Positions 3,082-34,061 of a DNA stretch of 35,902 nt are shown here, in pieces (positions within the stretch are counted from its first letter, which is position 1; every line of letters starts with the position of its first letter). The DNA comes from Spirochaetota bacterium (lineage in GTDB: Bacteria; Spirochaetota; UBA4802; JAFGJZ01), in the NCBI GenBank assembly GCA_029554345.1, contig JAKPJF010000128.1:1-35902 (forward strand), in the 5' to 3' direction. The notes under the pieces were generated by a model. It made no database searches. It worked only from the letters and a program-made list of their open reading frames with translations, and was not told the origin of the DNA. Made by a program: the position numbers and the translations under genes.

Positions 3082-3506
3082 TTTCTGCTGTTCTTGATTC
3101 TAATATTTTCATTTCGGCCTTTCTTTTCAATGGAAATCAAAGGAGAATTATCAATCATGCAATTGAAGGTGATTTCAGAATAAATATTTCTCATGAGATT
3201 TTATCGGAAATTGATTCTGTTTTGAAACGTCCAAAATTCAAACTTACTTTGAATCAGATTAGTTTATTCTTAAATGAAATAAGTTCATTGTCAGAAATAT
3301 GTTACCCTTCAGCTAAAATTATAGATTCATGCAGGGATTCCGGTGATCATATTATTTTAGAATGTGCGGTTGAATCAAAATCAGATTATATTGTAACCGG
3401 AGATAATGATCTTTTAATTTTAAAAAAATATAAAGCTATAACCATAATTAACTCAGATGCGTTTTTATCTATTCTTGAAGAGCAATCAACACAGGAGCTT
3501 ATATGA
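3078..3506 (+). CDS. PIN-domain toxin (VapC-like RNase)
   Basis: The 142-residue protein has the acidic active-site set of PIN ribonucleases: D7 in VLDSNIFISA, E44 in EILSEID, D90 (with D87) in CRDSGDHIILECA, and D109/D111 in IVTGDNDLL. This matches the family related to the putative-toxin PIN_3 group more closely than classic VapC. PIN toxins use Mg2+ to cleave tRNA, rRNA or mRNA. Four-base overlaps at both ends tie it to its RHH antitoxin upstream and to a beta-lactamase downstream, an unusual third gene for a TA operon. Confidence 0.87.
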   Translation: MISAVLDSNIFISAFLFNGNQRRIINHAIEGDFRINISHEILSEIDSVLKRPKFKLTLNQISLFLNEISSLSEICYPSAKIIDSCRDSGDHIILECAVESKSDYIVTGDNDLLILKKYKAITIINSDAFLSILEEQSTQELI

Positions 3507-4396
3507 AAAAAATCTTCTCCTTTATATTTCTTCTCATCGCTTCATTTTCTGTTGCATTCGGGAACGCGGATGATTCTCTTGAAAATCGGATTAATTCAAT
3601 TATATCCGGCAAAAAGGCTTTTGTAGGCGTTGCTGTTTCCGGTATCGAAAATAATTTTTCATTCAGCATAAACGGAAAGAAGAATTTTCCTATGATGAGC
3701 GTTTATAAATTTCATATAGCGCTTGCTGTTTTGAATAAATTTGACGGCGGCAGTTTGAAGCTTGATGAAAAAATTCCGCTTAATAAAAAAGATCTTCATC
3801 CCGGAACATGGAGTCCTTTGCGCGACAAGTATCCGAATGGAGGCGTGAGCATTCCGCTTTCGGAAATAATAGAATATACAATCACTCAAAGCGACAATAA
3901 CGGCTGTGATATTCTGATTTCTTTTGCGGGCGGAACTGAAGCGGTTAAGAAATTCATCGAATCAAAAGGCATAAAAGATTTTGACATCAAGGCCACCGAG
4001 AACGAATGTCATGAGTCGTGGAATGTTCAGTATTCGAACTGGTCAACGCCGCTTTCTGCGGTAAATCTTCTTAAGAAATTTTATGAAAGAAAAATAATTT
4101 CGGCTTCATCGACAGATTATCTGATGAATGTAATGATACGCACTTCAACCGGCGATAAAAGAATAAAGGGTCTCATTCCGTCAAGTGCCGATGTTGCGCA
4201 TAAGACCGGAACCTCCGGAACTCGAAACGGAATTACACCCGGGACTAATGATGTGGGAATAGTAACACTTCCGAACGGTAAGCATTTTGCGATTGCAATT
4301 TTTGTGTCTGATTCACGTGAGAATAGTATTGTAAATGAAAGAATCATTGCTGAAATTACAAAGGCAGTGTGGGATCATTTTATTAAGATGAATTAA
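3503..4396 (+). CDS. bla: Class A (subclass A2) beta-lactamase
   Basis: This 297-residue secreted serine beta-lactamase has a signal peptide (MKKIFSFIFLLIASFSVAFG, cleaved near residue 20) and all class A motifs, at positions that coincide with Ambler numbers: S66-V-Y-K69 (nucleophile motif SxxK), S130-D-N132, E166 in the omega loop, and K234-T-G236. Residue 170 is His instead of the common Asn, as in PER-type enzymes. With VQYSNWSTP and TSGTRNGITPGTNDVG, this points to the CfxA/CepA/VEB/PER branch, many of which hydrolyse cephalosporins. It would act in the periplasm. The start codon lies within the PIN toxin stop (ATGA), with AGGAG upstream. A terminator closes the operon. Substrate range cannot be read from sequence. 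Confidence 0.93.
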   Translation: MKKIFSFIFLLIASFSVAFGNADDSLENRINSIISGKKAFVGVAVSGIENNFSFSINGKKNFPMMSVYKFHIALAVLNKFDGGSLKLDEKIPLNKKDLHPGTWSPLRDKYPNGGVSIPLSEIIEYTITQSDNNGCDILISFAGGTEAVKKFIESKGIKDFDIKATENECHESWNVQYSNWSTPLSAVNLLKKFYERKIISASSTDYLMNVMIRTSTGDKRIKGLIPSSADVAHKTGTSGTRNGITPGTNDVGIVTLPNGKHFAIAIFVSDSRENSIVNERIIAEITKAVWDHFIKMN

Positions 4397-6577: not shown

Positions 6578-9500
6578 ATGAAATTTAAGCCGATGGCCAT
6601 TATAGGTATATTCTCATTGTTGATGTGCGGTTTTCTTTCCGCCGTAAATGATGACGGAATGAGTGTTTTTGGAGATTCCGAAAATATCTCTTCTTCTGAT
6701 GTTTTTAAGGGCGAAGTCTTTGATTCCGTCACGAAGAAGCCGGTGAAAAAAGCAAAAATTGAATTTAAAAATATAAATCTTGGAGTAGGTTATTATACCG
6801 CCGAGACTGATTCTTCCGGAAAATTTGAAATCAAGGGATATATAAAAAACATAATTTACCGCGTGGCAGTGAGCGCGGATGGTTATGTTAACTTTTCTTC
6901 AACCGCATCAATGGACTCTGATAAAATGAAAATATTTCTTGCTCCGGAATGCCGCATTTTAGGCGCTGTGAGCGATTCGGCCGGTAAAAAAATCGAAGGC
7001 GTAGATGTTAGAATTTCTTCATCATACGGTTATGATGAAGCGGATGAATATGATGATTATAATGTTTCTTCTTCCGGTACACGAACCAAGCCGGTTGAAA
7101 CGACATCTTCGGGAGCTTATTCTTTCGTCAAGCTTCCAGCCGGTTCATATAATGTGACTTTTTCAAAAGCCGGATATATTTCTGAAACCGTGCAGGTTAG
7201 AAATATCAAACACGGCGAATATTTTGATCTAAACATGGTTTTGTTCCGTCCGTCAACAATCACCGGAAAGATAAATATATCCGAGCTGAATGTTCCTGCT
7301 GTTAATGTTGAAATATATGCAGAGGGGAAAGCCGTTCATTCGGCGGTTACATTTGATGACGGAACATATCTTCTTTCGGACATGAAACCGGGTGTTTATA
7401 CTGTCAGGACTAATCATTCGGGATTTTTCGAAAAGAAAATTGATAAGCTTAATTTGAAAGAAGGCGAAGAAATCAAGAATATCGATTTTACGGTAGTGCC
7501 TAAGAAAGCCGAGGTTGATGTTTCTTCATACCGATATGTTTTTTCACCCGGAACGACGGTCGCGTTCGAGATGCGTACGTTCAGAATAGAAACTGCAAAT
7601 GTTTCCATATACAAGGTTCCGGTAAGTTTTTTTACCAAGGGCATTCATGATCCTCATTCCGTTGACGTGAAGGCAAACGGTTTTGAAATCCATTCGTCAT
7701 GGAAGGAGTCTATAAGAGAATTTTCTCCGTTTGAATGGCGCTATCAGACGCTGGAAATAACGAAGCCTCTTCCGACAGGCGGATACTGCATCGAAGTTAA
7801 AGGCGAGAACGGAGTAAAATCGAGAAAATTCTTTACAGTTACTTCAGTCGGCGTAGTCGCCAAGCGTTCTCCTTCATCGCTATTTGTTTACTCGAGCAGT
7901 CTTGTTTCAAATGCTCCTGTCAAGGGAACGGAAGTCTATGTTTATAAACGCAAAAAATCAAATGATGATTATTATGATATCAACCGTATAGAAAAGCTTC
8001 CTGCTGATTTTGTGACAAAAGCTGTTACCGATGAAAAAGGAATCTGTCAGATAAAGATGAAGTCAAATGAAAGCATGATTATTCTGGCTGTAGCGCCTGA
8101 CAGAAGTTTCGCTTTTTGTGAAAGCACTTCCGCATCGCAGTCGCAGAGCGAGATGAATAAATTCTATATTTACACGGACCGTCCAGTTTACCGTGCAGAT
8201 GACACTGTTTTTTACAAGGTTATCGCAAAAAAGCGTTCTGAAGTTATGACTCCAATCGCGGGTAAAACTTTTGCTTATAGAATCATTAACACAAACAATG
8301 ACAAAATAATAGAAGAGGGCAATCTTTCTCTTGATGAATGGGGAACTTTCAATTCAAAAATAAAAATTCCGGAATCGGCAGGTCTCGGAAGATTCGAATT
8401 GCGCGTAGGAGACTCGCTTGATAATCTTTTTGCACGCGGCTTTTTCTATGTCGAGCAGTATCGCAAGCCCGAGTACAAGGTTGAAGTTCTTCCTTCAAAG
8501 GAATTTTTTCTAAACGGCGAAAGCGCGGAATTTAAGGTCGATGCAAAATACTTTTTCGGCGCGCCTCTCAAAAATGCCGTGGTCAGATACAGATTCTATG
8601 AAACACGCGATGATTTTTCGATTAACGGCGACAGATATTCGCAGAGTACGGTTTATGACAAGCTCAGACTCGAAGGCGAAAAGAATCTTGATGATAACGG
8701 AATTGCCGTATTGCGCATTGATACGGGGAAGCTTCCTTTCGACAGAAAAATAACACTCGAAGCAACTGTTACGGATGCGTCTAATATAAGCATTACTTCC
8801 TCCGGTAATGTCCGCATAGGCAGAGGCGAATTTTATATCAGAATAAGTCCCGAAAAATCATTTTATGATTCATCGGAAAATAAAAAGATATTGGTCGAAA
8901 CTTTTTCACAGTCCGGAAAACCCGTGAGCGCTGATGTTGAAATAAATCTTTTCAGATATATATGGAAACCTTATCATCGTGTTTATGTGCATGAAGGTAA
9001 GGCGTTCTTTACGAAAAAGATTTCAACTGATTCGAAAGGAAAAGCGGAACTTGTTATACCTGCCGCGAAGGATTCATCAGGCGAATTCGATATTATGGGA
9101 AGCGCGAAAGACCGTTTCGGAAATGAAATAAAAGCGTCAAAAGTAATTCTCATATATTCCGCTTCTTCGGATACGAAATCGAAATTCGGAAACCTTGAAC
9201 TTGAAATAGACAAGAAGAAAATCGATAAGCCTGAAGAAATAACTATTCTTCTGAAAAGCCGTTTTACGGATGCCAATGTGTGTCTAACGGTCGAAGGCCG
9301 CGACGTCTATGCTTCGCGTCTTGTAAAAATGAATTCAAACGTGATTGCGGTAAAACTTCCTGTAAAAGACAGTTATGCGCCGAATTTTTTCGTGACGGCT
9401 ACCATGCAGAGGGGCCGCGCGCTCTATACTGCCCGTGAACAGGTTACGCTTCCGGAAAAAGATACATCTATGAAAATTTCGATTTCAAGCGATAAGGAAA

Positions 9501-11920
9501 AATATTCTCCCGGTGAAAAAGCGAAAATAAAAATCAAGGCAGTCGATGTAAACGGAAAACCGGTTAAAGCGGATCTTTCTCTTGCCGCGGTAGATGAATC
9601 GATTTTCTCGATACGTTATGATCACACGCCCGAGATAAACGGATTTTTTTATTCGAAGATTTCAAACTGGGTTTCGACGACTTATTCTTATCCGATCAAT
9701 CTATATGCCGGTGCAGGCAAGGATGGAAAGACTAAGGTAAGAAGCCGCTTTGAGGATACAGCTTTCTGGAAGGCCGATATTAAAACCAATGCGTCCGGCG
9801 AGGCGTCGATCGAAATTAATCTTCCAGATAATCTGACCACCTGGCGTTTGACAGCGCGCGGTCATGATAAGAGCGGAATGGCCGGAGAAAGTAGACAGAA
9901 ATTCCTAGTGTCGCAGGATCTTGTTTCTAGAATCGGAAAACCGCGTTTTTTAATTGAAGGTGATGAAATAGATCTCCTTGGAATTGTGACAAGCAATACT
10001 CCGCGCGGTCTTTCCAGTGTAGGTTTGAAATTTTCAGCTGACGGAAGTGAGCTTAAGACTAATGATTTGTCAAAAGTTTCTCTTCCTGGATTCGGAACCC
10101 ATTCGCTTTCATATAAGTATAATGTGCCGCAGAAAGAATCTATTGATTTGCAATTTGATTCTTATGCCGACAAGGAAGCTTCGGATGCTGTTAAATATTC
10201 CGTTCCGGTTGAAAAACGCGGAAGCCGTTACCGCCTTTTCGGAATTGCGGAAACAGGCAAAAAAACCGAACTGAAATTTTTAAAAGATTCATCGGACTTT
10301 GAATTTGTGCCTGAGCGCGCCGTTGTGACTTTTAATCCGAGTCCGGTATTTCAGATGCTTAACGCATGCAATTATCTTGTCGAATATCCTTACGGTTGTA
10401 TTGAGCAGACAATCAACAGATTCATTCCGCTTCTTGCAGTTCATACTTTGATAAATGAAAAAGGCGCCGGACATCTGATTGATGATAAATACAAAAAAAA
10501 TCTCAACGCCTTTGTGCTTGAAGGGATTTCGCGTGTCCAGTCGATGCAGAATGATGACGGAAGTTGGGGATGGTTTGCCGGCGACAGAGGAAACGAGTTT
10601 CTGACATGTTACGCGCTTTCATCTCTGAAGAAAGCTGAGCAAAAAGGTTTTAACATATCGAAGCAGACCGTTGACAGCGGTCTTGCGGCAGTATCAAGAA
10701 TGATGAATGCAAAAAATAATAAAGGATATGTCAGCGGCTATGCCGAACTCGCGAATCTGCTTTATGTTTATTCTTTGTGCGGCAGATGGAATCATGAGCT
10801 TTATGCGGAATTGTCGAAACGCAAACCGGTTTCATACGAATCAGCTTTTATTATAAATGCTCTATCTGTTACAAATGCCGAACGCGATAAAGCGTTTAAA
10901 TCAAAGAATCTCAATATTATTGTTGAGATTAAGAAAGCGAAGAAGGCGCTTCTTGATTCTGCAGGCAAAGACGAATACGGCATCGTGTGGAAGAGCAGTT
11001 ATAATCCGTGGTCATGGCAGGGAAATGATTCCGAGATGACTGCGCATGCGCTTTCAGCTCTTTGCCGTCTCAAAGGAAATGATGACTTGAAAGCTCAGAT
11101 CGTGCTTTCTCTTTCCAAAAGAGCGAACGGCGGAATATGGGTGAGTACAAAAGGAACCGGAACGGTTATTCTTTCGCTTTGTGATTATTTTGACGGTGTG
11201 AAAGATATCGGCGCGGAGGCTTCTGAAATCAAAGTTTCAGTTAACGGCAAAAATCTGGTAAACATCAAGTATGATCCGGCTGATAAGAGTGCCGTTTCGG
11301 ATAAGCTTACGAGATATGTGAAACTTTCGGGAGAAAAAGGGCCTGTTGTGTTTGAGAGTTCATCGGCCGGAGGAAAGGGTTCAACTGTCAGCGTGACCGT
11401 GGAGGGCACACTCAAATTCAATCCTAAAGGTTTTACTTCCATATTTAAGTCAAATGAGCGGTCTCTTTCCGCGCTGAATAACGGAATAGATGTCAGCAGA
11501 ACATTTTACAGGCTCAAACGCATATTTGATCTGAACGGTGCAGAATATCTCATTCCTGAAATGATAAAACCTGAGAATGGAATTAAGAGCGGAGATGAAA
11601 TTATGGTCAAGGTACGTTTTTCTTCAAAGGAAAACCTTGATTATGTTGCTCTCGAGGATTTTTTGCCAAGCGGTTTTGAAGTGAGCAGAGTTGACGCTTA
11701 CGGCGGAATAAACCAGTACAGCAGAGCGGAAAGATGGGATAACCGTATGGTATTCTTCTTTTCGGAACTGAAAGCGAAACAGGTATATGAACTTGCCTAT
11801 ACTGTGCGTGCCGAGCTTTCGGGAAAATTTATGGTCAGACCGTCCATTGCAGGATGTATGTATGAGCCGTCTGTTCAGGGATGGAGTTCGCCAGCCGAGA
11901 TTGAAGTGAAAAAGAAATAG
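6578..11920 (+). CDS. Alpha-2-macroglobulin-like protein with thioester
   Basis: The 1780-residue protein begins with a signal sequence (residues 1-22). Three carboxypeptidase-regulatory-like beta-sandwiches follow (about 44-300, e.g. GEVFDSVTKKPVKKA, GKINISELNVPAV). Next is the macroglobulin core: an MG2-type strand IYTDRPVYRADDTVFYK (about 531-547), the A2M block FWKADIKTNASGEASIEINL with TTWRLTARG (about 1063-1095), the thioester C1274-I-E-Q1277 in YPYGCIEQT, a helical thioester domain with DDGSWGWF, and a C-terminal receptor-binding-like domain with LPSGFEV. Such proteins trap proteases: cleavage of a bait region exposes the thioester, which bonds to the attacker. No penicillin-binding protein PbpC partner is adjacent, unlike the Escherichia coli-type locus. 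The start follows GGAGGAAAT. It is alone in its transcript and ends at a terminator. Confidence 0.93.
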   Translation: MKFKPMAIIGIFSLLMCGFLSAVNDDGMSVFGDSENISSSDVFKGEVFDSVTKKPVKKAKIEFKNINLGVGYYTAETDSSGKFEIKGYIKNIIYRVAVSADGYVNFSSTASMDSDKMKIFLAPECRILGAVSDSAGKKIEGVDVRISSSYGYDEADEYDDYNVSSSGTRTKPVETTSSGAYSFVKLPAGSYNVTFSKAGYISETVQVRNIKHGEYFDLNMVLFRPSTITGKINISELNVPAVNVEIYAEGKAVHSAVTFDDGTYLLSDMKPGVYTVRTNHSGFFEKKIDKLNLKEGEEIKNIDFTVVPKKAEVDVSSYRYVFSPGTTVAFEMRTFRIETANVSIYKVPVSFFTKGIHDPHSVDVKANGFEIHSSWKESIREFSPFEWRYQTLEITKPLPTGGYCIEVKGENGVKSRKFFTVTSVGVVAKRSPSSLFVYSSSLVSNAPVKGTEVYVYKRKKSNDDYYDINRIEKLPADFVTKAVTDEKGICQIKMKSNESMIILAVAPDRSFAFCESTSASQSQSEMNKFYIYTDRPVYRADDTVFYKVIAKKRSEVMTPIAGKTFAYRIINTNNDKIIEEGNLSLDEWGTFNSKIKIPESAGLGRFELRVGDSLDNLFARGFFYVEQYRKPEYKVEVLPSKEFFLNGESAEFKVDAKYFFGAPLKNAVVRYRFYETRDDFSINGDRYSQSTVYDKLRLEGEKNLDDNGIAVLRIDTGKLPFDRKITLEATVTDASNISITSSGNVRIGRGEFYIRISPEKSFYDSSENKKILVETFSQSGKPVSADVEINLFRYIWKPYHRVYVHEGKAFFTKKISTDSKGKAELVIPAAKDSSGEFDIMGSAKDRFGNEIKASKVILIYSASSDTKSKFGNLELEIDKKKIDKPEEITILLKSRFTDANVCLTVEGRDVYASRLVKMNSNVIAVKLPVKDSYAPNFFVTATMQRGRALYTAREQVTLPEKDTSMKISISSDKEKYSPGEKAKIKIKAVDVNGKPVKADLSLAAVDESIFSIRYDHTPEINGFFYSKISNWVSTTYSYPINLYAGAGKDGKTKVRSRFEDTAFWKADIKTNASGEASIEINLPDNLTTWRLTARGHDKSGMAGESRQKFLVSQDLVSRIGKPRFLIEGDEIDLLGIVTSNTPRGLSSVGLKFSADGSELKTNDLSKVSLPGFGTHSLSYKYNVPQKESIDLQFDSYADKEASDAVKYSVPVEKRGSRYRLFGIAETGKKTELKFLKDSSDFEFVPERAVVTFNPSPVFQMLNACNYLVEYPYGCIEQTINRFIPLLAVHTLINEKGAGHLIDDKYKKNLNAFVLEGISRVQSMQNDDGSWGWFAGDRGNEFLTCYALSSLKKAEQKGFNISKQTVDSGLAAVSRMMNAKNNKGYVSGYAELANLLYVYSLCGRWNHELYAELSKRKPVSYESAFIINALSVTNAERDKAFKSKNLNIIVEIKKAKKALLDSAGKDEYGIVWKSSYNPWSWQGNDSEMTAHALSALCRLKGNDDLKAQIVLSLSKRANGGIWVSTKGTGTVILSLCDYFDGVKDIGAEASEIKVSVNGKNLVNIKYDPADKSAVSDKLTRYVKLSGEKGPVVFESSSAGGKGSTVSVTVEGTLKFNPKGFTSIFKSNERSLSALNNGIDVSRTFYRLKRIFDLNGAEYLIPEMIKPENGIKSGDEIMVKVRFSSKENLDYVALEDFLPSGFEVSRVDAYGGINQYSRAERWDNRMVFFFSELKAKQVYELAYTVRAELSGKFMVRPSIAGCMYEPSVQGWSSPAEIEVKKK

Positions 11921-18982: not shown

Positions 18983-19528
18983 TTAATAAAACACAACTTC
19001 GCTGTCATTAACAAACAGCTGCGAAATTGCGCTGTTTCCTTTTGCGTCAACTGAAACTTCAACTGTTGTTGATTTCATATTGGATTCTATGTAATGGCCT
19101 TGATTCTGCGGTACAAAATAATCCTCCACGCCGTAGCGAATGGTGATGGAGTTGTCATACGCGTATTCAACTTTTCCGCGGATAACTGCCGGATAACGGC
19201 CTGATAGTGTTTTGATGTCGGAGCTGACTTCAGCCGCGTTGTAATACGGAGCGGATGCGTCCTTTTCAAGAGCGACGTAAATAGTCTGATCCATGCTGAA
19301 AGATGTGCCGGTCTTTACCTTCAGCTTTTCAGTATCTATGTTTGTGATTTCGTATCTGAGAATTACATAGTCGCCGCTGAAAAGACTCCTCGGATCTACG
19401 GGTATGCACTTGAGTAATATTTTTGTCCCTCCGGAGAGAAGTCTTTCCTGTTTGAAAATCATCGACCCGAGCACTGCAAGCTGTGCCGCTACCAGTATGA
19501 AGAATAATATTTTTTTATATTTTGTCAT
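18983..19528 (-). CDS. GDYXXLXY-domain protein
   Basis: A 181-residue protein with one N-terminal membrane segment (ILFFILVAAQLAVLGSMIF) and the signature GDYVILRYEI (residues 52-61) that names the family. An extracytoplasmic beta-rich domain follows, containing YPAVIRGKVEY and GVEDYFVPQNQGHYIE. These proteins are nearly always encoded beside or fused to a DUF2157 membrane protein, as here; the function of the pair is not established. The ATG overlaps the stop of the upstream DUF2157 gene by four bases, so they are translationally coupled. Confidence 0.88.
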   Translation of the reverse strand: MTKYKKILFFILVAAQLAVLGSMIFKQERLLSGGTKILLKCIPVDPRSLFSGDYVILRYEITNIDTEKLKVKTGTSFSMDQTIYVALEKDASAPYYNAAEVSSDIKTLSGRYPAVIRGKVEYAYDNSITIRYGVEDYFVPQNQGHYIESNMKSTTVEVSVDAKGNSAISQLFVNDSEVVFY

Positions 19529-21438
19529 ATCGTTTCACCTTTAATCATTTCAGCCGCTTTAATTTTGCGCGATAGCGAACGCCGTCTGTTTTCAAGAATA
19601 ATTCCGGCGGTTATGCCGATGAGACCCGTGCAAAGAAGAAATATCGAGCCGGACAGCATATCCCAGAACAGATCAAAATACCTCGTCAGTATGTGAAGCA
19701 CGAATGCGCAAACCATTATGTTAAGAAGCGCCTTTGACTGAATGACGGAACTGTAAAACATATATATAGAAGAAAAAATGACAAGCAGTGAATTGAATAG
19801 CATGGAATAAACAATCCACGAAGTGTCCGGACCTGCTATAAAAAGCGCAGTTAGAGTAAAGACTGAAACCAGCCCGGCGAGATAGACGATGATGCGGTTG
19901 TTCTTGAGAGTTTTGACGAGCCAAACGAAAAGGCCTGCCGCGATTACGGAAAAAAGAATTATCAATATTACAACAATTCTGTTCGCGCTGAAAATTGAAC
20001 GCTGTCCGATTATTTCAAACGAAGCGGCGTATACTGATATCCACATCATTGCCGCGCACAAAGCGTGAATGACAGCCGGAGAATATTTGACACCGCGTTT
20101 TTTCGCGAGGTTTTCGACGAGAACATTGAGAAGAAGGCAGACGACTGCAAAGATGATGAATCCTGCAAGATATGCTACTTTATATTTTTCTGAGATGAAA
20201 GCGTAAATTACGAAACCGAATCCTTTGACTATAATTGCCGAAAACGCAAAAATGTACGGGAGTATCGTATTGAAAATATCTTTCTTTTCTGCTGTGTGAG
20301 AATAATATAGAAAAAAGAAAAAGAGGGCAGCGATCACGCAGTGAAAGCTTATCATTCGAACCTGCAAATCTCCCATCGGCAGAAAAAATACAAGAGCCGG
20401 GAAAGCGCATGCAGCGGTTAAAAATTTAACGGGTTTTCCGCTTTTTCTTATCAGGTAAATCAATAAGGCGGATATTGCGATGAATGCGGTATAGATTGAT
20501 GAATATTTTATACTTACCCCGAATGACGCGAATATTCCGGCTTCGATTTTGCCGAAAGGCCATGACATGGCAAGAAAAGGTAATATAAATATCAGCCATC
20601 CTAAGACGGACATGAGGTAACTCACGGGCCTGAAAAGCTCTTTATCTCTGAAGTACGATCCGGCACAAAGAAGCATCGCTCCGAAAGGAAGATTTAATAG
20701 TCCTGCTTGAAAAATCATTACTTCAAAACTGGTTTTGTAAGAATAGCCTGGAATGACGGACTGATAATAATAAAATATAAGAAAGCAGAGCGACGCGATG
20801 ATGCCGGGTACATCTTTCAAGCGGATATATAAGAAAGCTGTCAATGCGATGAATAGTAAAAATAAGTAGGCAGGATTATCATATACTGCGAATTCCCAGC
20901 AGTTCCATATAAAAAAGAGAAGTGAGGCGATGTAGAGTCCGAAGCGTTCGCGCATGAGAGCCGCTATGAGAAAAACTCCCGCAGCCCATGCAAGAATTCC
21001 GTTTGTCGGATGAGCGCTGATGTGATAAATCTGCGCGACAAGCATAATCGCCGCGCCGTATGAAACCATACCGAGTACGAGAAGCGATCTTCCGATGAGG
21101 CGGCTTCGGTTTTCGCTGAAAAGATACCATGCTGATGCAGAGTAGCTTGCGATGACAAGAAAAAACACCTGGATGAGCTTAATGCTCGGCGGCATTTTCT
21201 TCCAGTTAGATGCATAAAATATAATTATTCCTGCGGTGAGGCAGAGAACGGCGAGACCCATGATTACAGAATTGAGATTGAGTGATTTTTTCGAAGATTT
21301 ATTTTTCTCGCGGGATTCTGCTTCGACGGCATAGAGTGATTCAATTTGATTCTGCTGCTCGTGTGAAATTATTCCCTGCTCGGTCCATTTGCGGACTTCG
21401 CTTATCAGTTCTCTGATGAAGAAAGAATTTTTTGCCAT
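19525..21438 (-). CDS. DUF2157/DUF4401 polytopic membrane protein
   Basis: The protein has about 637 residues. The start MAKNSFFIREL (ATG 21438, GGGGCGG just upstream) is preferred over an ATG six codons earlier. Residues 1-40 form the soluble DUF2157 head with KWTEQGIISHEQQNQI, then come about 14 hydrophobic segments (for example VIMGLAVLCLTAGIIIFY, then AAIMLVAQIYHIS, and near the end LLCTGLIGITAGIIL). The final GIILENRRRSLSRKIKA is basic and cytoplasmic. The ALxxGxxxFYASNWKKMPP segment matches the DUF2157 hallmark. Function unknown; co-occurrence with GDYXXLXY suggests an envelope role. It diverges from the gene at 21690 over about 250 AT-rich bases. Confidence 0.87.
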   Translation of the reverse strand: MAKNSFFIRELISEVRKWTEQGIISHEQQNQIESLYAVEAESREKNKSSKKSLNLNSVIMGLAVLCLTAGIIIFYASNWKKMPPSIKLIQVFFLVIASYSASAWYLFSENRSRLIGRSLLVLGMVSYGAAIMLVAQIYHISAHPTNGILAWAAGVFLIAALMRERFGLYIASLLFFIWNCWEFAVYDNPAYLFLLFIALTAFLYIRLKDVPGIIASLCFLIFYYYQSVIPGYSYKTSFEVMIFQAGLLNLPFGAMLLCAGSYFRDKELFRPVSYLMSVLGWLIFILPFLAMSWPFGKIEAGIFASFGVSIKYSSIYTAFIAISALLIYLIRKSGKPVKFLTAACAFPALVFFLPMGDLQVRMISFHCVIAALFFFFLYYSHTAEKKDIFNTILPYIFAFSAIIVKGFGFVIYAFISEKYKVAYLAGFIIFAVVCLLLNVLVENLAKKRGVKYSPAVIHALCAAMMWISVYAASFEIIGQRSIFSANRIVVILIILFSVIAAGLFVWLVKTLKNNRIIVYLAGLVSVFTLTALFIAGPDTSWIVYSMLFNSLLVIFSSIYMFYSSVIQSKALLNIMVCAFVLHILTRYFDLFWDMLSGSIFLLCTGLIGITAGIILENRRRSLSRKIKAAEMIKGETI

Positions 21439-21689
21439 GCCGCCCCGTTTCTGCATTGAATTGACTGTAATGCAGTGTGTATGTATTGGAATATAATATT
21501 TATATTTATTTTGCGTTTGTCCAGCAGTTTTTCAATAAGAAATTAGTCTGTTGAGAAAGTTTGAAATATTGATTGCATTTTGATTAAAAAATTCTTTTTA
21601 ATTATTACATGATCATATTGATAAATTGTTGGAAATATATGTATCCGGAAATTATTGGTTTGTTCAAAATATAATTGAAGGGAAACGGT

Positions 21690-22781: not shown

Positions 22782-23711
22782 GTGGATGAAAAAATAACAA
22801 GGCTTATTAACAGCATTTCTCGGGTTTTTGTCGAAGATGAACCGGTTTGTGAAAACTGCATTCTTGCGCTTATTTCAGGGCTTCATGTTCTTATTGAAGA
22901 TTTTCCCGGAGTCGGAAAGACGACACTCGCAAGAGCCATTGCCGAAGCAAGCGGTCTTGATTTCGGACGAATTCAGTTTACGCCGGATATCCTTCCGGGA
23001 GATGTTCTCGGCATGAGTATGTGGGTTTCCGGAAAAAATGATTTTGTATTCAGGGAAGGACAATTGCATCATCAGATAATAATCGCCGATGAACTTAACC
23101 GGGCATCTCCCCGGACTCAGTCGGCGTTTCTTGAAGCGATGCAGGAAGAACGTATAACGGTAGACGGAGTTACGCATCTTCTTCCGTCTCCTTTTTTTGT
23201 TATAGCAACGCAGAATCCTGAAAATTTTTCAGGAACTTTCCCTCTTCCCGAAGCGCAGCTCGACAGATTCGGAATATCCCTTTCAATAAATTATCCGAAC
23301 ATTGAAAATGAAGTGCGTATTCTGAACACTTTTTGTGAATCAAATCTGATAAAAGCGGAAAAGATTACTTCCACGGATGAAATTATATCCATAAGGGAAT
23401 CAGTCAGGAAGATTCCGGTTTCTCAGAAGATATTTTATTACATAGCTGAAATAGTTTCAAAAAGCAGATCGCGCAATGACGTCAAGCTTGGACTTAGTCC
23501 GCGGTCGTCGCTTCATCTCCTGTATGCGTCGCAAGGCAGGGCATTTATGGAAGGAAGGGACTTCGTGATTCCTGAAGATGTTTTATATTCAGCTCCGATA
23601 GTATTGCCGCACAGATTAGTTCTTTCTCCTGACGCGCGTTTTTCCGGAATTACTCCGAAAAAAATTATTTCCGAAATTGTGTCTTCGGTAAAAATTCCGA
23701 CCGGATTATAA
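22782..23711 (+). CDS. MoxR-family AAA ATPase
   Basis: A 309-residue AAA+ protein. Walker A is G43-VGKTT (FPGVGKTTLARAIA), Walker B IIIADE (99-104) with ELNRASPRTQSAFLEAMQEERITVDG, sensor-1 ATQNP, and an LPEAQLDRF arginine-finger region; this matches MoxR exactly. A C-terminal lid domain follows from about 200. MoxR ATPases act as chaperones or assembly factors, usually with a DUF58 protein and often a VWA or transglutaminase protein, as in this operon. The start is a GTG with GGGAGGAG upstream. The stop is two bases before the DUF58 start. Confidence 0.95.
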   Translation: MDEKITRLINSISRVFVEDEPVCENCILALISGLHVLIEDFPGVGKTTLARAIAEASGLDFGRIQFTPDILPGDVLGMSMWVSGKNDFVFREGQLHHQIIIADELNRASPRTQSAFLEAMQEERITVDGVTHLLPSPFFVIATQNPENFSGTFPLPEAQLDRFGISLSINYPNIENEVRILNTFCESNLIKAEKITSTDEIISIRESVRKIPVSQKIFYYIAEIVSKSRSRNDVKLGLSPRSSLHLLYASQGRAFMEGRDFVIPEDVLYSAPIVLPHRLVLSPDARFSGITPKKIISEIVSSVKIPTGL

Positions 23712-23713
23712 TT

Positions 23714-24874
23714 GTGATAAGAATTAATTTCAGAGCGGCAATATTGTATCTGATTTCTCTTTCTCTGCTGTATCTGGCGGCTATGAGTTTTGCCGGCGCG
23801 GTTGCAGTTATATATTATGCCTTATTGTTTTTTCTTCTGATTTCTCTGGGGCTTTTTATTTTCAATTCACTCTCATTGCGCTTTATAGAAATATTTTCAA
23901 ATGAACATCCATTGAGAGGGGAAACTATTACCTATAAACTTGCCCTGTCCAATGAATATTTTTTGCCTATCGTAGAATTTTGTATCAAATTCAGAGAAAC
24001 GGCCGGAGCCGGAGAAAATTTCGAGAAGAAGATAAATTGCTTCATAGGCGGCAAAAAATATTTCGAGAAAGAATATTCTGTCATTAGCGAACATCGCGGA
24101 GTGTACGAACTGGGTATTGAACGCGCGGAGATCATGGATATGGCTGGAATACTTGCGTATTCGCCGAAGATTTTTTTTAGAACCTTTTATGTAAGGCCTA
24201 GAATTTTCCGCCCGGATAATACTGATTTTGCCGAAAGCCTTAAAGATTCAAGCGGCGGAAACTTTCACGGAGGTGCGGAAATAGATGATCAGTTTTCATC
24301 TATAGAAGAATATAGGGAAGGGATGGAAACTAAAAGAATATTCTGGAAGAAATATTTTTCTACGGGCAATATGTATGTCAAATTATTCCATGGGTCTTCG
24401 CGTAAAAGTATTGATGTATATGCGGATATGAGAAGATCGGATGCTCATGGATTCAGAACCAACGAGGATCTTATTCTTGAATCATTGCTTTCTGTTTCTG
24501 CTCATTTGCTGAAGAGCGGAACAAAATTTTCCGTTTATGCTGAAGGAGAAAAAGTTCTCGGAGAAAACTGCGGAATGAAACAGTTTGATAAATTTTATGA
24601 GTCGACTGTGTTTATTTCTTTTAACGGACAAATGTCGCCTTATGCGGGTATTCTTTCCGAAAGCAGAACGGGAATAGCAAAAGATGCGATAGTTATATCA
24701 TCCAGCAGTGATTATTTATGCGCGGATGTTCCTTATCCTGAAAAAATATTGATTCTATATGTTTCTGCAAATCCTCAACCTGAAGATGAAAGGTACTTGT
24801 CCGTGCTTGAATCAAGAGGAATCCGTGTAAAACTTATAAGCTCTTTTGAAGACATTTCAAAGGTCTTTCAATGA
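23714..24874 (+). CDS. DUF58 domain protein
   Basis: The 386-residue protein has an N-terminal pair of membrane segments (about 8-45) followed by a beta-rich stretch. The DUF58 motif EYREGMETKRIFWKKYFSTG (about 197-216), matching the family's R-x-Y-x-x-G-D...R-x-I-x-W-K-x-S signature, leads into VKLFHGSSRKSIDVYADM, a VWA-like strand. DUF58 proteins are encoded with MoxR ATPases and are probably their membrane-bound partners. A GTG start lies two bases after the moxR stop, and its last four bases (ATGA) overlap the next gene, so all three are translated as one coupled operon. Confidence 0.87.
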   Translation: MIRINFRAAILYLISLSLLYLAAMSFAGAVAVIYYALLFFLLISLGLFIFNSLSLRFIEIFSNEHPLRGETITYKLALSNEYFLPIVEFCIKFRETAGAGENFEKKINCFIGGKKYFEKEYSVISEHRGVYELGIERAEIMDMAGILAYSPKIFFRTFYVRPRIFRPDNTDFAESLKDSSGGNFHGGAEIDDQFSSIEEYREGMETKRIFWKKYFSTGNMYVKLFHGSSRKSIDVYADMRRSDAHGFRTNEDLILESLLSVSAHLLKSGTKFSVYAEGEKVLGENCGMKQFDKFYESTVFISFNGQMSPYAGILSESRTGIAKDAIVISSSSDYLCADVPYPEKILILYVSANPQPEDERYLSVLESRGIRVKLISSFEDISKVFQ

Positions 24875-26967
24875 AAAATGTTATCAAAAACCCGGAAGGA
24901 ACACGGCGTCTTATTGTATTATTTGTTTTTTCGCTTCTTGCCTCTGTTATTTTTCCTTTTATTATAAGCCGTTATGTCAACGGCAAAATGGTCTATCCTG
25001 TATTATATTCCGCGTCGGTTGTTTTGAATCTGGTGCTATTTTTAAGTTTTTTCTGCGGGGCCATCAAGAGAAAAATTATTCTCGGTTTTTTATATGCCGT
25101 TTATCTGTTTTCCGGGGTAACGCTTATTCTTTTTATTCTCATGATTCCATTTGATGCGTATAAAGCATGGATAAACGTTGATATTAAGCCGGAAGGAACA
25201 ATTTCAACAATTTTTGCAGCTGCATCTCTCATCCTGTCGGTAATTGTTTCGGGTTTTGTCTATAGACTGGGAATCATAAAAACATTTGTTCTTCATCTTT
25301 TTGCTAATTCTGCAGTGCTCTTTGTATTGATAAATTCATACGGGATTGCTTTTGCATCTTTATCTATTTTGTTTTTCGGAATTATTTTTATTCCTGAGAG
25401 AACAAATTATTTCGGGCAAAAATTTAAATTCTTTTTTATGATGTTTATCTCTGTAATTATTGCTTCATTCGTTTTGTCTTCAAGCATTAAAAAAGAGCAG
25501 GGTTGGCTGACTTCATATCTGATTTCTGAAAATTTTAAGGGATTTGTTCTGGAAACTTTTCCAAATTCCAAAGAAGCCGGAGCGATAAGCGGTTATGGGC
25601 TATTTTACCGCGAAAATGTTTTTGCGAATAAGCCGAGATTTTCGGAATCAGAAATATTCAGGCTTTCGATAGAAAACGGAGAACCTTTCAAAGAATACTA
25701 CATAAAGATACGGACGTATTCGTACTACGGCGGAACTTTATGGTCAGCGCAAAGCAGAAAAAAATCCGAAAAAGTTTCTTTTGAAAAGTATAACATTTCT
25801 TTCGGTTCGTCTGAAAGTTATTCAAACATCAAGCTCTTTGTATCCGGCGATTATCTTCCATATATTCCGTATATGCTTTCATCGGAAAAAATTGTAGTTA
25901 AATCGCAATCTGCAAATTCCATCTCTCCTGCAAGTGAATACGGCGAATATATTTCTTCGGGGCCGCTTCTGAAAAATGATACTGTTTCTATCACATTAAA
26001 TCCGGATTATAATAAAACTATAAATTACGGAGGTATGAATCATTTTGTCGAATTGCTTGGCAGTAAATTGCCGTCAGATGAATTGATTCCGTATTTGCAA
26101 ATTCCTGAAAACCCCCGTTTGAAAAAACTTGCTGACAGTTTGAAGTCGAAGGACAAAGGCGCCGTCGGGACAGTTGAAAACATTTTGAATTATTTATCTG
26201 ATGAAATGACATTGTCGGCAAATCTGAATCTCCCTGAAATAGATGAGGATATCGTTGAACATTTTATAGATGAAAAGAAAGGCTATTCCGTGCATTTCGC
26301 TACTGCGATGGCTGTACTGCTGCGTTACTGCGGTATTCCGTCGAGATATGTTGAAGGATTCAGAATAAGTTCAGAAAGTAATAAGAAGTTTTATTTAGTG
26401 ACTGCATTCAATTCGCATTCATGGACGGAAATATATGCAGACGGAATAGGGTGGATAAGAATAGATCCTTTGACATATTTTTTTCATCCTAAAGCTGGAA
26501 AGGCAGCTAAAATAGAAAGAGATCCTGAAACTGAGAAATATATTTCGGCGATGGAAGGAAGATTAAAAAAGAGAAAGCAAATTGAATACTTGAAGAAAAA
26601 AAATGTCCTCATCATTTCCATGATTGCTGCCGCGGCTGCTTTGTTGTATGTAATATTTAGATTCATAAAATGGTTCATGTTCCGTAAAAAAATATTTTGC
26701 CTGCCGCGGGATAAGAGACTTGCGAAGGAACTCCGCAAATTGACGGCTCTGTTCTCAGATGAAAATATTTTTCACCCTTCTTTAACGGGATGGAATAAAT
26801 GGTTCAATCAAGCAGAAAAAAAATATCCCGATTTGAAAAAATTGGATGAAATTAGAAATATTGTTCTAAGAAGTGTCTATTTTTCAGGGAATGATGCTGA
26901 ATCAGTAAAGTCTCTTCGTAATGCTGTCCGCGCTCTGAAAGCCGAAAAGAAAGACAAGTTAGATTGA
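24871..26967 (+). CDS. Membrane transglutaminase-like protein, catalytic Cys replaced
   Basis: This 698-residue protein has about six N-terminal membrane helices, an extracytoplasmic region (about 200-560) with a transglutaminase-core domain, a C-terminal membrane helix (about 572-592) and a cytoplasmic tail. It resembles the TgpA/DUF3488 architecture paired with MoxR and DUF58 elsewhere. The TG core reads GYSVHFATAMAVLLRYCGIPSRYVEG. Relatives have G-x-C-x-x-F/Y here, but residue 473 is Ser (TCC). H516 (NSHSWTEIY) and D532 (GWIRIDPL) are conserved. The protein may therefore be an inactive pseudo-transglutaminase or a serine variant. The start overlaps the DUF58 stop by ATGA. Confidence 0.88.
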   Translation: MKNVIKNPEGTRRLIVLFVFSLLASVIFPFIISRYVNGKMVYPVLYSASVVLNLVLFLSFFCGAIKRKIILGFLYAVYLFSGVTLILFILMIPFDAYKAWINVDIKPEGTISTIFAAASLILSVIVSGFVYRLGIIKTFVLHLFANSAVLFVLINSYGIAFASLSILFFGIIFIPERTNYFGQKFKFFFMMFISVIIASFVLSSSIKKEQGWLTSYLISENFKGFVLETFPNSKEAGAISGYGLFYRENVFANKPRFSESEIFRLSIENGEPFKEYYIKIRTYSYYGGTLWSAQSRKKSEKVSFEKYNISFGSSESYSNIKLFVSGDYLPYIPYMLSSEKIVVKSQSANSISPASEYGEYISSGPLLKNDTVSITLNPDYNKTINYGGMNHFVELLGSKLPSDELIPYLQIPENPRLKKLADSLKSKDKGAVGTVENILNYLSDEMTLSANLNLPEIDEDIVEHFIDEKKGYSVHFATAMAVLLRYCGIPSRYVEGFRISSESNKKFYLVTAFNSHSWTEIYADGIGWIRIDPLTYFFHPKAGKAAKIERDPETEKYISAMEGRLKKRKQIEYLKKKNVLIISMIAAAAALLYVIFRFIKWFMFRKKIFCLPRDKRLAKELRKLTALFSDENIFHPSLTGWNKWFNQAEKKYPDLKKLDEIRNIVLRSVYFSGNDAESVKSLRNAVRALKAEKKDKLD

Positions 26968-27097
26968 TAATGATTATATCAACGTAATGATGACAACCTA
27001 ATAAGCTTTTATCCGGTAAACAGATGCGTTTTCAGCGCATAAAATTCATGTTGAGTTTTTTTGATGGAAGATATATGTTTTTCAAAATGGAGATTGT

Positions 27098-29953
27098 ATG
27101 AAAACTGTCAGATTAGCATCAATAGCCGTTCTTTTTGTGTCGCATAGTATCTTCGCCGATCAGGCGGGGGATATTCTAAAAACGGCTGATGCGTTTAAGG
27201 AAAAGAAAGACTATGTTTCCGCAGAGAAGATGTATCTTCAGGCAGAGGAAGCAGATCCGGAAAGCGGTTTCATCACCGCGCGCAAAGCGCAGTTTTTTCT
27301 TTTGACACTTAAAGATTATGCAAGAGCTTCGGCGGCGTATGAATCTGCCTATAGCAAAGGCTTCAGGGAATCATGGCTTTTTATTCAGGCAGGCAACTCC
27401 TGGCGCTATCTTAAAAATTATGAAAATTCAGAGAAGTGGTTTCGTCTCGGAATTTCTGAATACAATCAAAAAATCGAATCTGCGAAAAAGGCGGGCAAAC
27501 CGCTTCAGAAATTAAATGACGGACTTGTTTCTATCTATGCGCAGTTTTGTTCGGCGATGATAGACTTGAAAAAATTCAGCAATGCGGATGCCGTTGCATC
27601 GGAATGCATTAAGCGGTTCACGGATACAGCGAACAGCTCGTTTCTCAATTATGCGGCGCGAAGTAATTATTGGCGTTCAGTAGAATCTTTCGGCGCCGGT
27701 GATTTTGAAAGCGCTGCAGATTACGCCGAAAAAGCCCGGAATCTGGCTGTTCGTGCCGGAAAGGATTCAGCTGTTCTTGCCGATGAGTTTGCAACTCTTA
27801 TCAAGGTGATAAAAGCCGGCGAAAAAAGCAAATCGGTAAAACCGCTCTGTGTTCACCGTATGAAAATATTAATTATTCCCGAGACTGATGCGAAAGATGA
27901 AGGTAATGCCGTACACATAAAAAGCTCTGTGACTGATGAAGATGTTTTTATGACTAATCTGTCTGCAAAATTTGTTAAGCGTTTTATTGAGGCGTCAACA
28001 GGCGGAAAGCTCGGCATGGATATAGTTGTCGATAAACCATCGATTAAACTTACACGCATAAAAGATAATTCTGATATAGAGACGGAAAACAGAAAAAACC
28101 GAACACCCGATCTCGATTATTTTGTTTCTCAGAATGAGGATTATTTTAAAAAAGCTGTTAATGATTTTGATACTTTTGTGCTGATCTGGAGCGCGAAAGA
28201 ATTCAATGTTGCTAACGGAGGACAGCGGCAGTTCAAATTTGCTTCCGCTGATGTTTCTGTCATGCGCGGATACAATCAAATCACGGCTGAAAGGATATCA
28301 TATAATGGGCCTGATCTTCTGCTTCATGAATTTTTTCATACAATTGAAAAGCTCGGCCGCGTTCCGGTACAGCACGGATATTACAAAGAGAACAGGCATA
28401 ACTATCCCGAATGGAAGGGAGTTAACGGAAACGATTACTACTTCTGGCAGCTTTCGGAAAATATACCGAAAATTCTCAGAGATAAATTCAGTGAAGATTA
28501 TTCATCATTCAGTTTCATCAAAAAATATCCGGCTGATTTTACGCGTCCTGTGCGTGCAGTAAGAGTACGTCCTGAACTTCCGGTATTCAGAAAGATTGAC
28601 CGTCTTGCAGCGGACGAGCGTTCCGCTGTTTACAGGACAGGCGTTATAGATTCTGCCGCTGAAAATGCTCCGAAAGATTCTGCTGCGGCGATGTTTGCAA
28701 AGCCTGAGGATGCTGCAGTAAAGGAATTCGTGAAGGCTCTTCTTGCCGGTGTTGAAGATCCTTTTAGAAAGGCGAAAATTATTCATGACTGGATTACTCT
28801 CAATATCGCCTATGATTCTGATCTATTGATCCGTCTGCGTACTGACGCGGATCCCGACGGAGGAAAAGACGCGTTGAGCGCTCTCAAATACCGCCGCACT
28901 AACTGCGCGGGATTAGCCGATCTTTACAAGATGCTCGGTCGATATGCAGGACTTGATGTACGCTATGTGACCGGAAGCATCAAAACCGGCGGAACGCCGG
29001 ACGGCGGTCTCATGAGTCATGCGTGGAATATCGTGAAGATTGAAGGAAAAGAATATATCGTCGACTGCAGTCCGGACAGCAGAAAGTATTATACAGGAAA
29101 GAAGACGGGTGCTTTGGCTGATTATGCTTCGCGCAGTGATCATCTTTTTATTCATCCCGAGGCAAAGCGGATCGCTTATCTCGCTTCAAATCCAAAAGAT
29201 CAGATCGCACTTCCGCCGCTTGATTTCAATCAGTTCAGCAGACTTCCGCGATTTGCTGTAGCATCATACAAGTACGGCATCAAATTCAAAAAGCACACAA
29301 ATGCCGTGTATTCAGTTATCCGCAAAACGAAACCGGGAGGCGGCATCGAAGTGTCGGATCTTTATACTCTTGAAAGTCAGCCGCTTGAAATTGAATGTGA
29401 AGCGCCGGACGATTCTTTCGCTGATATAACTCTTCTTGATGAAGCAGGTAAAAAAATAGACTACTATACCTCGTCACAGCGAAACGGCGGAAGTTTTATA
29501 TTCATGGTTTCCGCTCCGCGTGCGGGAATATTTACAGTAGTTATTAATGCCCGCTCGTTATCACAGCCTGAGCGCGTAAATGAGATATACCGCTTCGCAG
29601 TTAATTCAGCCGTTGCAATGAAGCCGTGTGCACCTGCTGTTCAGCGAGGGCATTACGCTGATATTCTTGCGATAAAATCCGTTTCTGTAAATCGAACTGC
29701 CGATAAGAAGCGTATCGAAATTGAAATTGATCATCCTTCGCAGACCGTGATTGTTTCAATAGTCCGTGATGCACAGGATAGAAATCAGACAGGAAGTGCT
29801 AAAAAAAAGACGACTGACACAGGAACGATGTTCACCTATGATATCTCTCCCGACAGCAAAGATATAATTGTAATATCAGGCCGCCGCAGTGATGATACCT
29901 CGGGAAGGGGAAATCAGCGTTTGCTTACCATTCGTTCGGAGGATGTTAAATAG
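27098..29953 (+). CDS. Secreted TPR, HExxH and transglutaminase protein
   Basis: A 951-residue exported protein with a signal peptide MKTVRLASIAVLFVSHSIFA. TPR-like repeats fill about 25-240 (KKDYVSAEKMYLQAEEADP, KFSNADAVASECIKRF). A middle domain (about 250-470) carries HEFFH at 410-414 (LLHEFFHTIEKLG), the HExxH zinc motif of zincin peptidases. A later transglutaminase-like domain (about 570-670) has an intact C603 (TNCAGLADLYKML), H641 (SHAWNIV) and D656 (IVDCSPD). The C-terminal 250 residues are beta-sandwich. The domain order is unusual. It lies 130 bases after the Ser-variant transglutaminase gene, on the same strand, possibly in the same regulon. The substrate is unknown; cell-wall or protein crosslinks are possible. 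Confidence 0.82.
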   Translation: MKTVRLASIAVLFVSHSIFADQAGDILKTADAFKEKKDYVSAEKMYLQAEEADPESGFITARKAQFFLLTLKDYARASAAYESAYSKGFRESWLFIQAGNSWRYLKNYENSEKWFRLGISEYNQKIESAKKAGKPLQKLNDGLVSIYAQFCSAMIDLKKFSNADAVASECIKRFTDTANSSFLNYAARSNYWRSVESFGAGDFESAADYAEKARNLAVRAGKDSAVLADEFATLIKVIKAGEKSKSVKPLCVHRMKILIIPETDAKDEGNAVHIKSSVTDEDVFMTNLSAKFVKRFIEASTGGKLGMDIVVDKPSIKLTRIKDNSDIETENRKNRTPDLDYFVSQNEDYFKKAVNDFDTFVLIWSAKEFNVANGGQRQFKFASADVSVMRGYNQITAERISYNGPDLLLHEFFHTIEKLGRVPVQHGYYKENRHNYPEWKGVNGNDYYFWQLSENIPKILRDKFSEDYSSFSFIKKYPADFTRPVRAVRVRPELPVFRKIDRLAADERSAVYRTGVIDSAAENAPKDSAAAMFAKPEDAAVKEFVKALLAGVEDPFRKAKIIHDWITLNIAYDSDLLIRLRTDADPDGGKDALSALKYRRTNCAGLADLYKMLGRYAGLDVRYVTGSIKTGGTPDGGLMSHAWNIVKIEGKEYIVDCSPDSRKYYTGKKTGALADYASRSDHLFIHPEAKRIAYLASNPKDQIALPPLDFNQFSRLPRFAVASYKYGIKFKKHTNAVYSVIRKTKPGGGIEVSDLYTLESQPLEIECEAPDDSFADITLLDEAGKKIDYYTSSQRNGGSFIFMVSAPRAGIFTVVINARSLSQPERVNEIYRFAVNSAVAMKPCAPAVQRGHYADILAIKSVSVNRTADKKRIEIEIDHPSQTVIVSIVRDAQDRNQTGSAKKKTTDTGTMFTYDISPDSKDIIVISGRRSDDTSGRGNQRLLTIRSEDVK

Positions 29954-30101: not shown

Positions 30102-30716
30102 ATGAAAATTCCAAAACGCATTGATACAATAAAAAGGCATATTATAAAATTCGAAAAGTATCTTCAGTACGAAAAAAGAACGTTCGGTTGTTATGACGAC
30201 GGCGGCGGAATCCGTTATATCATTGGTTCGTATTATATGCTTGCCGGAGACGTTGAAGGTGCGCTTAAACATTTTAAATGGTTTCAAAGAGTTTTTCCTG
30301 ATGACTGCGGTTCTCCGGAACAGTATCTTTCATGGACTCTCGCGCTTTATAAATCAGGTGATTTAAAGAAGGCATACTCCAAATTTCTTCAGACTCTTTT
30401 GATGAATCCTTTTGTTATCGCAAGAGTTATAGGTGTTGATTACATAATGCCGTTTGAGCCTGGTTCAAATATTCCGACAAAGGAATGGGCTGACTGGATT
30501 GCCGATGAAATCTATAATCTGTGGGATGAAGAAGCCGCAGCCTGGGCAAAAGAATCTTTCTGTGATGAAAAGTCGCAGAAGATACTCAACAGATATTATG
30601 AAATTGAAAAACAGCTTATGACGGAACCCGTCGGCGAGACAAGAAGCAGACTTGTTAAAGAAAAGTTTGCGATGATGGATAATCCGCTGGCGGTAAGTAA
30701 AGCAGATCCGACTTAA
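30102..30716 (+). CDS. TPR-like hypothetical protein
   Basis: A 204-residue protein without a signal peptide, so probably cytoplasmic. Residues 37-110 form a pair of TPR-like helix hairpins (GIRYIIGSYYMLAGDVEGALKHFKWFQRVFP and QYLSWTLALYKSGDLKKAYSKFLQTLLMNP). The family is unknown to me, though such short TPR proteins with Trp-rich ends (WADWIADEIYNLWDEEAAAW) occur as small adaptors. Its style resembles the TPR protein at 31812 (YAGDVEGAL/YPEAAEYFQKG), suggesting related functions. ATG after AACGGAGAAT. Confidence 0.7.
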   Translation: MKIPKRIDTIKRHIIKFEKYLQYEKRTFGCYDDGGGIRYIIGSYYMLAGDVEGALKHFKWFQRVFPDDCGSPEQYLSWTLALYKSGDLKKAYSKFLQTLLMNPFVIARVIGVDYIMPFEPGSNIPTKEWADWIADEIYNLWDEEAAAWAKESFCDEKSQKILNRYYEIEKQLMTEPVGETRSRLVKEKFAMMDNPLAVSKADPT

Positions 30717-32804: not shown

Positions 32805-34061
32805 ATGGATAACAGAGATATTCTTGTTGTTGAAGACGATAAGATCATGTCCAAATACATTTCAGATATACTGAAAGATGAAAATTATAATGTTTCGAAT
32901 GCTTATGACGGTCTATCAGCTTTGGAAAAATATGAATCGGGAAACTACAGCGCCATTATAACAGATCTCGAAATGCCGCAGATGGACGGAATAGAACTTA
33001 TCCAAAGACTTCAGGCGAAAGAATTCCCTCCGGTAATTATTGTGAGCACAGTGAAAAATGATCCCGATACAATAATAAGCATCATGAAAATGGGAGTTTA
33101 CACCTATCTTCTGAAACCAATAAATTCGGCTGAATTGATTTTTTCGGTCAATAAGGGTTGTGAATACTCTAAGATTTTGCGGGCAAACATGGTCTATGAA
33201 AAGGAAAAAAATATCCGTTTGGAGAATCAGCTCGAATGGTACCGGTGGCGTGAAAGATTTGTCTCAGGTTCCAGGGCAGGAGCGGGAAGCAGTATCTTTC
33301 AGGGACTTCTGACGAGTTTTAATCAGGGGGCTGGATTCGGGTCAATGGTTTCCATGATTGATCTTCTTGCAGCAAACGCGAAAAAAGAAAAAGGGTATTA
33401 CAGGATAGATTCATCTTTTTTTGACGCAATAATCGATAATAATAAAATAGCCTCAAAGGCCTTGGATGTTCTAGCTTTTATAAGAGATATTATCGACAAC
33501 GGTCTTGTTCTCAAAAAGGGGAAGGCTTCAGACATTCATGATATTTTTATTTCTTCGTCAAATGAGCTCAGAAAATATTCGGACATTAAAAACCAGCATG
33601 TCATTGTCAGTGATATCAAGCCTTCTTTCGAGGAAGCCGAAATGCTTTTCAATTATGAGTCGGTGAAGAAGGTGGCTGATGAACTTTTACTGAATGCTTT
33701 CAAGTACTCGGAAAAAGATACTGATATTATAGTTCTCGCAGATATGGAAGACGGAAATTTCCGAATTTCCGTGATCAGTATGCCTGAGAAAACGGCTTAT
33801 TCCGAAAAAGGGATTTCCATAGAATATGAGAACATAATTTTTGAACCTTTCTGCCGTTTGACTAAAACCGTACAGGAATCATACCATACACTGGAATTCG
33901 GGCTTGGTTTGACTATGGTGGAAAAAATCATAAATGCTCATAAAGGTAAAATCAAACTTTACAACATAAAAGATCATGCTTTCGTGAACGGTGATCCTTC
34001 CAGGGCGGTTGAAGTAAAAGTCTGCGCCGTTATGAGTATTCCTGTTATATCGGAATCTTGA
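32805..34061 (+). CDS. Receiver domain fused to a degenerate histidine-kinase-type ATPase
   Basis: A 418-residue protein. Residues 1-120 form a CheY-like receiver with acidic E10/D11/D12, phosphoacceptor D54 (ITDLEMPQMDG), S81/T82 and K104 (YLLKP), all intact. A linker coil (about 125-150) leads to a helical region where the H-box should be (LLTSFNQGAGFGSMVSMIDLL, about 168-188), but no phospho-His is present. The C-terminal HATPase has an N-box (ADELLLNAFKYS, N297) and a late G-box (EFGLGLTMVEKIINAHKG), while the D-x-G-x-G box is not recognisable. It may be a phosphorylation-controlled binding protein rather than a kinase. The gene is single, in a degraded region. Confidence 0.82.
   Translation: MDNRDILVVEDDKIMSKYISDILKDENYNVSNAYDGLSALEKYESGNYSAIITDLEMPQMDGIELIQRLQAKEFPPVIIVSTVKNDPDTIISIMKMGVYTYLLKPINSAELIFSVNKGCEYSKILRANMVYEKEKNIRLENQLEWYRWRERFVSGSRAGAGSSIFQGLLTSFNQGAGFGSMVSMIDLLAANAKKEKGYYRIDSSFFDAIIDNNKIASKALDVLAFIRDIIDNGLVLKKGKASDIHDIFISSSNELRKYSDIKNQHVIVSDIKPSFEEAEMLFNYESVKKVADELLLNAFKYSEKDTDIIVLADMEDGNFRISVISMPEKTAYSEKGISIEYENIIFEPFCRLTKTVQESYHTLEFGLGLTMVEKIINAHKGKIKLYNIKDHAFVNGDPSRAVEVKVCAVMSIPVISES

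Follow-up and report, generated by a model that had tools for sequence, protein, structure and literature searches.

A predicted exported spirochaete protein with TPR, zincin-like HExxH and transglutaminase-type modules behind a MoxR/DUF58-like/TgpA-like operon

Four consecutive genes in a 35,902-nucleotide stretch of DNA from a Spirochaetota bacterium (GenBank assembly GCA_029554345.1, contig JAKPJF010000128.1; hereafter the window) raise the question of whether two transglutaminase-like proteins that are encoded side by side also work together. The first is the membrane protein of a MoxR/DUF58-like/TgpA-like operon, and the second is a 951-amino-acid (aa) protein with a signal-peptide-like N terminus. 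According to the original prediction, the inactive membrane protein could recruit or regulate the exported one, in which TPR repeats, an HEFFH zinc motif, and a transglutaminase domain with a C603-H641-D656 triad are united in one chain. All four open reading frames (ORFs) are located where they had been predicted, with the 951-aa gene right behind the operon (Table 1), and all predicted parts of the exported protein, including the complete triad, were recovered.

Table 1. Coordinates of the operon, the 951-aa fusion protein with its modules, and the downstream neighbor in the window
Feature	Position	Strand	Basis
MoxR-type AAA ATPase gene	22782..23711	+	Pfam AAA_3 1.2e-54, AAA_lid_2 6.9e-20
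DUF58-like membrane protein gene	23714..24874	+	Gene order and sub-threshold Pfam DUF58 match; weak assignment
TgpA-like membrane protein gene, transglutaminase core	24871..26967	+	Transglut_core 2.5e-21
Ser473 codon TCC in the TgpA-like gene, at the catalytic Cys position	26287..26289	+	
951-aa TPR/HExxH/transglutaminase/Ig-like fusion protein gene, predicted exported	27098..29953	+	
Signal-peptide-like N terminus, residues ~1-20	27098..27157	+	Read from sequence; similar in relative L050
TPR-type helical domain, residues 22-244	27161..27829	+	AlphaFold helices; Foldseek TPR matches
HExxH module, residues 247-479	27836..28534	+	29-member alignment; model; PDB fold search
HEFFH, residues 410-414	28325..28339	+	HExxH in 29/29 members
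His426, candidate third zinc ligand	28373..28375	+	His in 26/29 members; putative role
Transglutaminase core, residues 539-690, C603/H641/D656	28712..29167	+	Pfam, model, PDB relative
Two beta-rich domains, probably Ig-like: ~700-845 (KY-like) and 850-951	29195..29950	+	
Small TPR protein gene, downstream neighbor conserved in the congener	30102..30716	+	

In the operon, the MoxR ATPase and the Ser-substituted transglutaminase core are clear, but the middle gene product matches DUF58 below the Pfam cut-off (E 0.055, 13.1 bits vs 23.4). The third ORF shares 4 bp with the second, and its product can be assigned to the TgpA family on the basis of its transglutaminase core, its length, and the nearby MoxR gene. 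In Pseudomonas aeruginosa, PA2875 and PA2874 encode the corresponding MoxR and DUF58 proteins. The three genes PA2875-PA2874-PA2873 are co-transcribed, and TgpA has been reported to be essential (PMC3507681). Both operons are three-gene units with a membrane protein that carries a periplasmic transglutaminase core, whereas the window protein has Ser in place of the catalytic Cys and an unrelated exported protein is encoded next; the activity and essentiality of P. aeruginosa TgpA are not transferable to the Ser form. An alignment of 30 TgpA-like cores showed Cys at this position in 29. The window protein alone carries Ser (Ser473), a substitution that had been foreseen, and His and Asp are present in all 30 (H516 and D532 in the window protein). 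The membrane protein is probably inactive, and the uniqueness of its Ser makes a changed role plausible. As TGC and TCC differ by one change, the codon may alternatively be a base error in the assembly; the stretch holding it is absent from the assembly of the congener.

A two-part system would be in line with the arrangement of the genes, i.e., their adjacency on the same strand and a gap of only 130 bp without a forward terminator-like site, and with the singular Ser of the membrane protein; the gap also holds a weak promoter-like match. However, a MoxR, TgpA, or separate transglutaminase gene was found in 0 of 24 neighborhoods of HExxH-family genes outside the genus, several of which lie on short contigs; the absence of a separate transglutaminase gene beside an HExxH gene in these 24 neighborhoods also means that the Rosetta-stone check was negative. 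Among 393 genomes of the phylum, TgpA-like proteins (E below about 1e-27) are encoded in 52 and the HExxH family in 28, and both occur in 5 genomes vs 3.7 expected (Fisher p 0.40), so that the proposed check of genomic co-occurrence gave a chance-level result. In G002 and G003, both from the same family, MoxR and TgpA genes occur in the same order with a middle gene of similar size, and their TgpA has the active-site Cys, but no HExxH-family gene was found in these two genomes. In the genome of the closest relative (G316), TgpA is located on a different contig, and in the congener genome (66% complete) none was found. Because the relatives of the HExxH module do not travel with the operon and usually occur without it, recruitment or regulation by the membrane protein is unsupported, and we consider this explanation quite unlikely. 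The adjacency is most likely positional and the operon most likely a separate, common module; a functional tie that is confined to this genus may exist. In both same-family genomes, the TgpA-like gene is followed by an ORF for a 381-aa lipoprotein-like protein (L037, 4369-5511, minus strand; L038, 11348-12490, plus strand), which is possibly the true operon partner there.

The window contains several further genes of interest. On the plus strand, positions 6578-11920 encode a 1780-aa bacterial alpha-2-macroglobulin (MG2, bait region, A2M, TED, MG10) whose CIEQ thioester motif at residue 1274 is intact and whose N terminus carries carboxypeptidase-regulatory-like domains, positions 3503-4396 encode a Beta-lactamase2-type serine enzyme (E 1.5e-42), and positions 32805-34061 encode a response-regulator receiver fused with a HATPase domain. 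The genes of a GDYXXLXY and a DUF2157 membrane protein lie side by side on the minus strand (18983-21456). The small TPR protein downstream of the 951-aa gene shows 96% protein identity in locus L015 and a dN/dS of 0.07.

With respect to the 951-aa protein, the signal-peptide-like N terminus, in which no lipobox was seen on reading the sequence, points to export into the spirochaete envelope or periplasm. The full-length AlphaFold model (mean pLDDT 73, pTM 0.53) comprises parts of very different confidence. The N-terminal domain consists of ~11 antiparallel helices with a pLDDT mostly above 90, and Foldseek matched it to consensus-TPR and OGT TPR structures; its Pfam score is below threshold. 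It is followed by a mixed module at residues 250-476. The linker 477-537 was modeled with low confidence and the transglutaminase and Ig parts with moderate confidence, the strands of the Ig-like regions being at the lower end. The Ig-like_KY match (E 1e-4) remains below the Pfam cut-off with 22.9 bits vs 27, which the relative L003 exceeds (38.8 bits).

An HEFFH motif outside a zincin fold would have counted against the original prediction; no such result was obtained. Modeled alone from 29 sequences, the module is confident (pLDDT 92, pTM 0.87), and HEFFH lies on a helix (405-419) in this and in the full-length model. Zincins are its best solved Foldseek matches, but they are weak (probability 0.98, E 4.7e-3, TM ~0.34). 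No match falls below 1e-3, and folds that have no relation to zincins, e.g., an Argonaute MID domain, rank close behind. The module is therefore called zincin-like. The HExxH motif and the upstream Arg390 are invariant in all 29 aligned members, and Glu417 is Glu in 28 and Glu or Asp in all of them. A His 12 residues after the second His of HEFFH, i.e., His426, is probably the third zinc ligand; the position is His in 26 of the 29 members. The Glu of the G..E..YY segment is unlikely to serve as this ligand because 10 of the 29 members have Gln, Gly, or Ala there. In adamalysins and other metzincin-type PDB matches, which are the best fold matches, HExxH likewise sits on a helix that follows a mixed sheet, but membership in the metzincins was dismissed, as the module has HExxHxxE instead of the HExxHxxGxxH/D motif; its helix extends across HExxHxxE, and the candidate ligand is a His farther along the chain. 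SprT-like metalloproteases have a similar order HExxH...HG. The module differs from them in lacking a Pfam match to this group, and SprT-like viral proteins appear low in its fold list (E 0.13 and 0.21). None of the 29 members scanned matched any Pfam family above the cut-off within the module (best E 0.018, single members only).

The assignment of the C-terminal half to the transglutaminase-like superfamily is based on a Transglut_core match at residues 544-654 (E 4.9e-14) and on the triad, which is embedded in the motifs NCAG (C603), SHAW (H641), and VDCSPD (D656). In the AlphaFold model, a helix begins at C603 and is complemented by strands at 637-648 and 651-655. The best PDB relative of the core is Streptococcus pyogenes TglA (9crn), which ranks first by sequence (E 0.0078) as well as by fold (E 6.1e-6); the identity is 18% over 165 columns, and the HExxH and TPR modules are unmatched in TglA. 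The succession of a core with an intact triad and a KY-like Ig region is shared with Transglutaminase-KY-Ig proteins (Pfam Transglut_core and Ig-like_KY), which differ by the absence of the TPR and HExxH modules.

The 28 genomes with the HExxH module were identified among the 393 of the phylum with a profile built on five members. Of 29 family ORFs, 28, a few of which are truncated at the end of a contig or locus, comprise TPR and HExxH and lack a transglutaminase domain. Outside the genus, L050/L073 (463 aa) is the nearest relative; it shares 50% identity across the module and ends just after it. Conversely, transglutaminase-KY proteins without HExxH are present in the same phylum (L003, L005, L011, L014). 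As both modules thus exist apart, the 951-aa protein has the appearance of a fusion, specific to the genus, between a TPR and HExxH protein and a transglutaminase-KY-Ig module. The only other genome with both domains is that of the congener (G001), where the contig breaks off within the gene; this copy keeps the fusion with every catalytic residue and is 88% identical over residues 405-951. In a scan of genome contigs, the matches were restricted to the congener and two transglutaminase-only relatives. A viral origin of the module was discarded, as six peptide patterns revealed no relative in viral contigs, and so was a plasmid origin, the sole plasmid match being to the transglutaminase domain. 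The TPR/zincin-like/transglutaminase combination is real and apparently undescribed, as had been supposed; literature searches, in which subscription papers were thinly covered, returned no description of it.

Some other members of the HExxH family carry different domains. In genome G013, two genes ~14 kb apart encode family members with ricin-type beta-trefoil lectin domains (L021, 70-2880, and L023, 1096-3597, both on the plus strand). Fusions to a calcineurin-like phosphoesterase (Metallophos; L062, 514-2970, plus strand) and to a BPL_N-like domain (L064, 1-2505, minus strand) were also found. One could accordingly think of a so far unnamed spirochaete peptidase family with a TPR scaffold and exchangeable partners, i.e., the lectin, phosphoesterase, BPL_N-like, and transglutaminase domains, in which the window protein would be a cut-and-join enzyme with a peptidase and a transglutaminase site that successively process the same envelope proteins; in this far-reaching form we hold the idea to be improbable.

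Comparison of the two species that share the fusion revealed a dN/dS of 0.08 for residues 405-480 and 0.07 for the transglutaminase core, vs 0.20 in the linker and 0.13 in either Ig-like region. The two catalytic regions are thus under purifying selection, which together with the invariance of HExxH indicates that the motifs are not chance occurrences, and the constraint on both parts fits two working sites. The HExxH module could nevertheless be a degenerate zincin fold that serves as a binding domain and leaves catalysis to the transglutaminase core alone. The weak fold match, the absence of the third His in 3 of the 29 members, and Gly444, which replaces the Glu or Gln of 25 of them, are compatible with such a domain; the universal HExxH and Arg390 and the low dN/dS of residues 405-480 argue against it, and we judge a purely binding role to be unlikely. 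The transglutaminase superfamily includes proteases and inactive members besides transglutaminases, and KY-type proteins are not established as cross-linkers. That the core does not cross-link as a transglutaminase but acts as a cysteine protease or amidase is accordingly a serious alternative, which we rate at slightly below even; the conserved and strongly constrained triad is evidence against a mere binding domain and does not separate these two activities, and transglutaminase-type activity of the C603/H641/D656 domain is predicted from the core match and the triad.

On balance, we lean slightly toward a stand-alone exported protein with two putative active sites that is independent of the operon. 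It would have originated by fusion of a TPR and HExxH protein, a family found across the phylum, with a transglutaminase-KY-Ig protein. The TPR superhelix would bind protein or peptide partners, and the HExxH module, as a divergent zincin with His410, His414, the catalytic Glu411, and probably His426, might cleave the bound partners. The Cys-His-Asp domain, which would be attached by the flexible linker and followed by the Ig-like domains, could hydrolyze or cross-link amide bonds in the same substrates.

The natural Cys-to-Ser exchange in the neighboring operon provides a test case for a non-catalytic role of TgpA-type proteins. The 951-aa protein and its relatives define a putative zinc-peptidase family without a Pfam model, which is present in 28 of 393 genomes and is combined with varied partner domains. 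In the genus investigated here, putative cutting and linking sites have been naturally fused in a single predicted exported chain.
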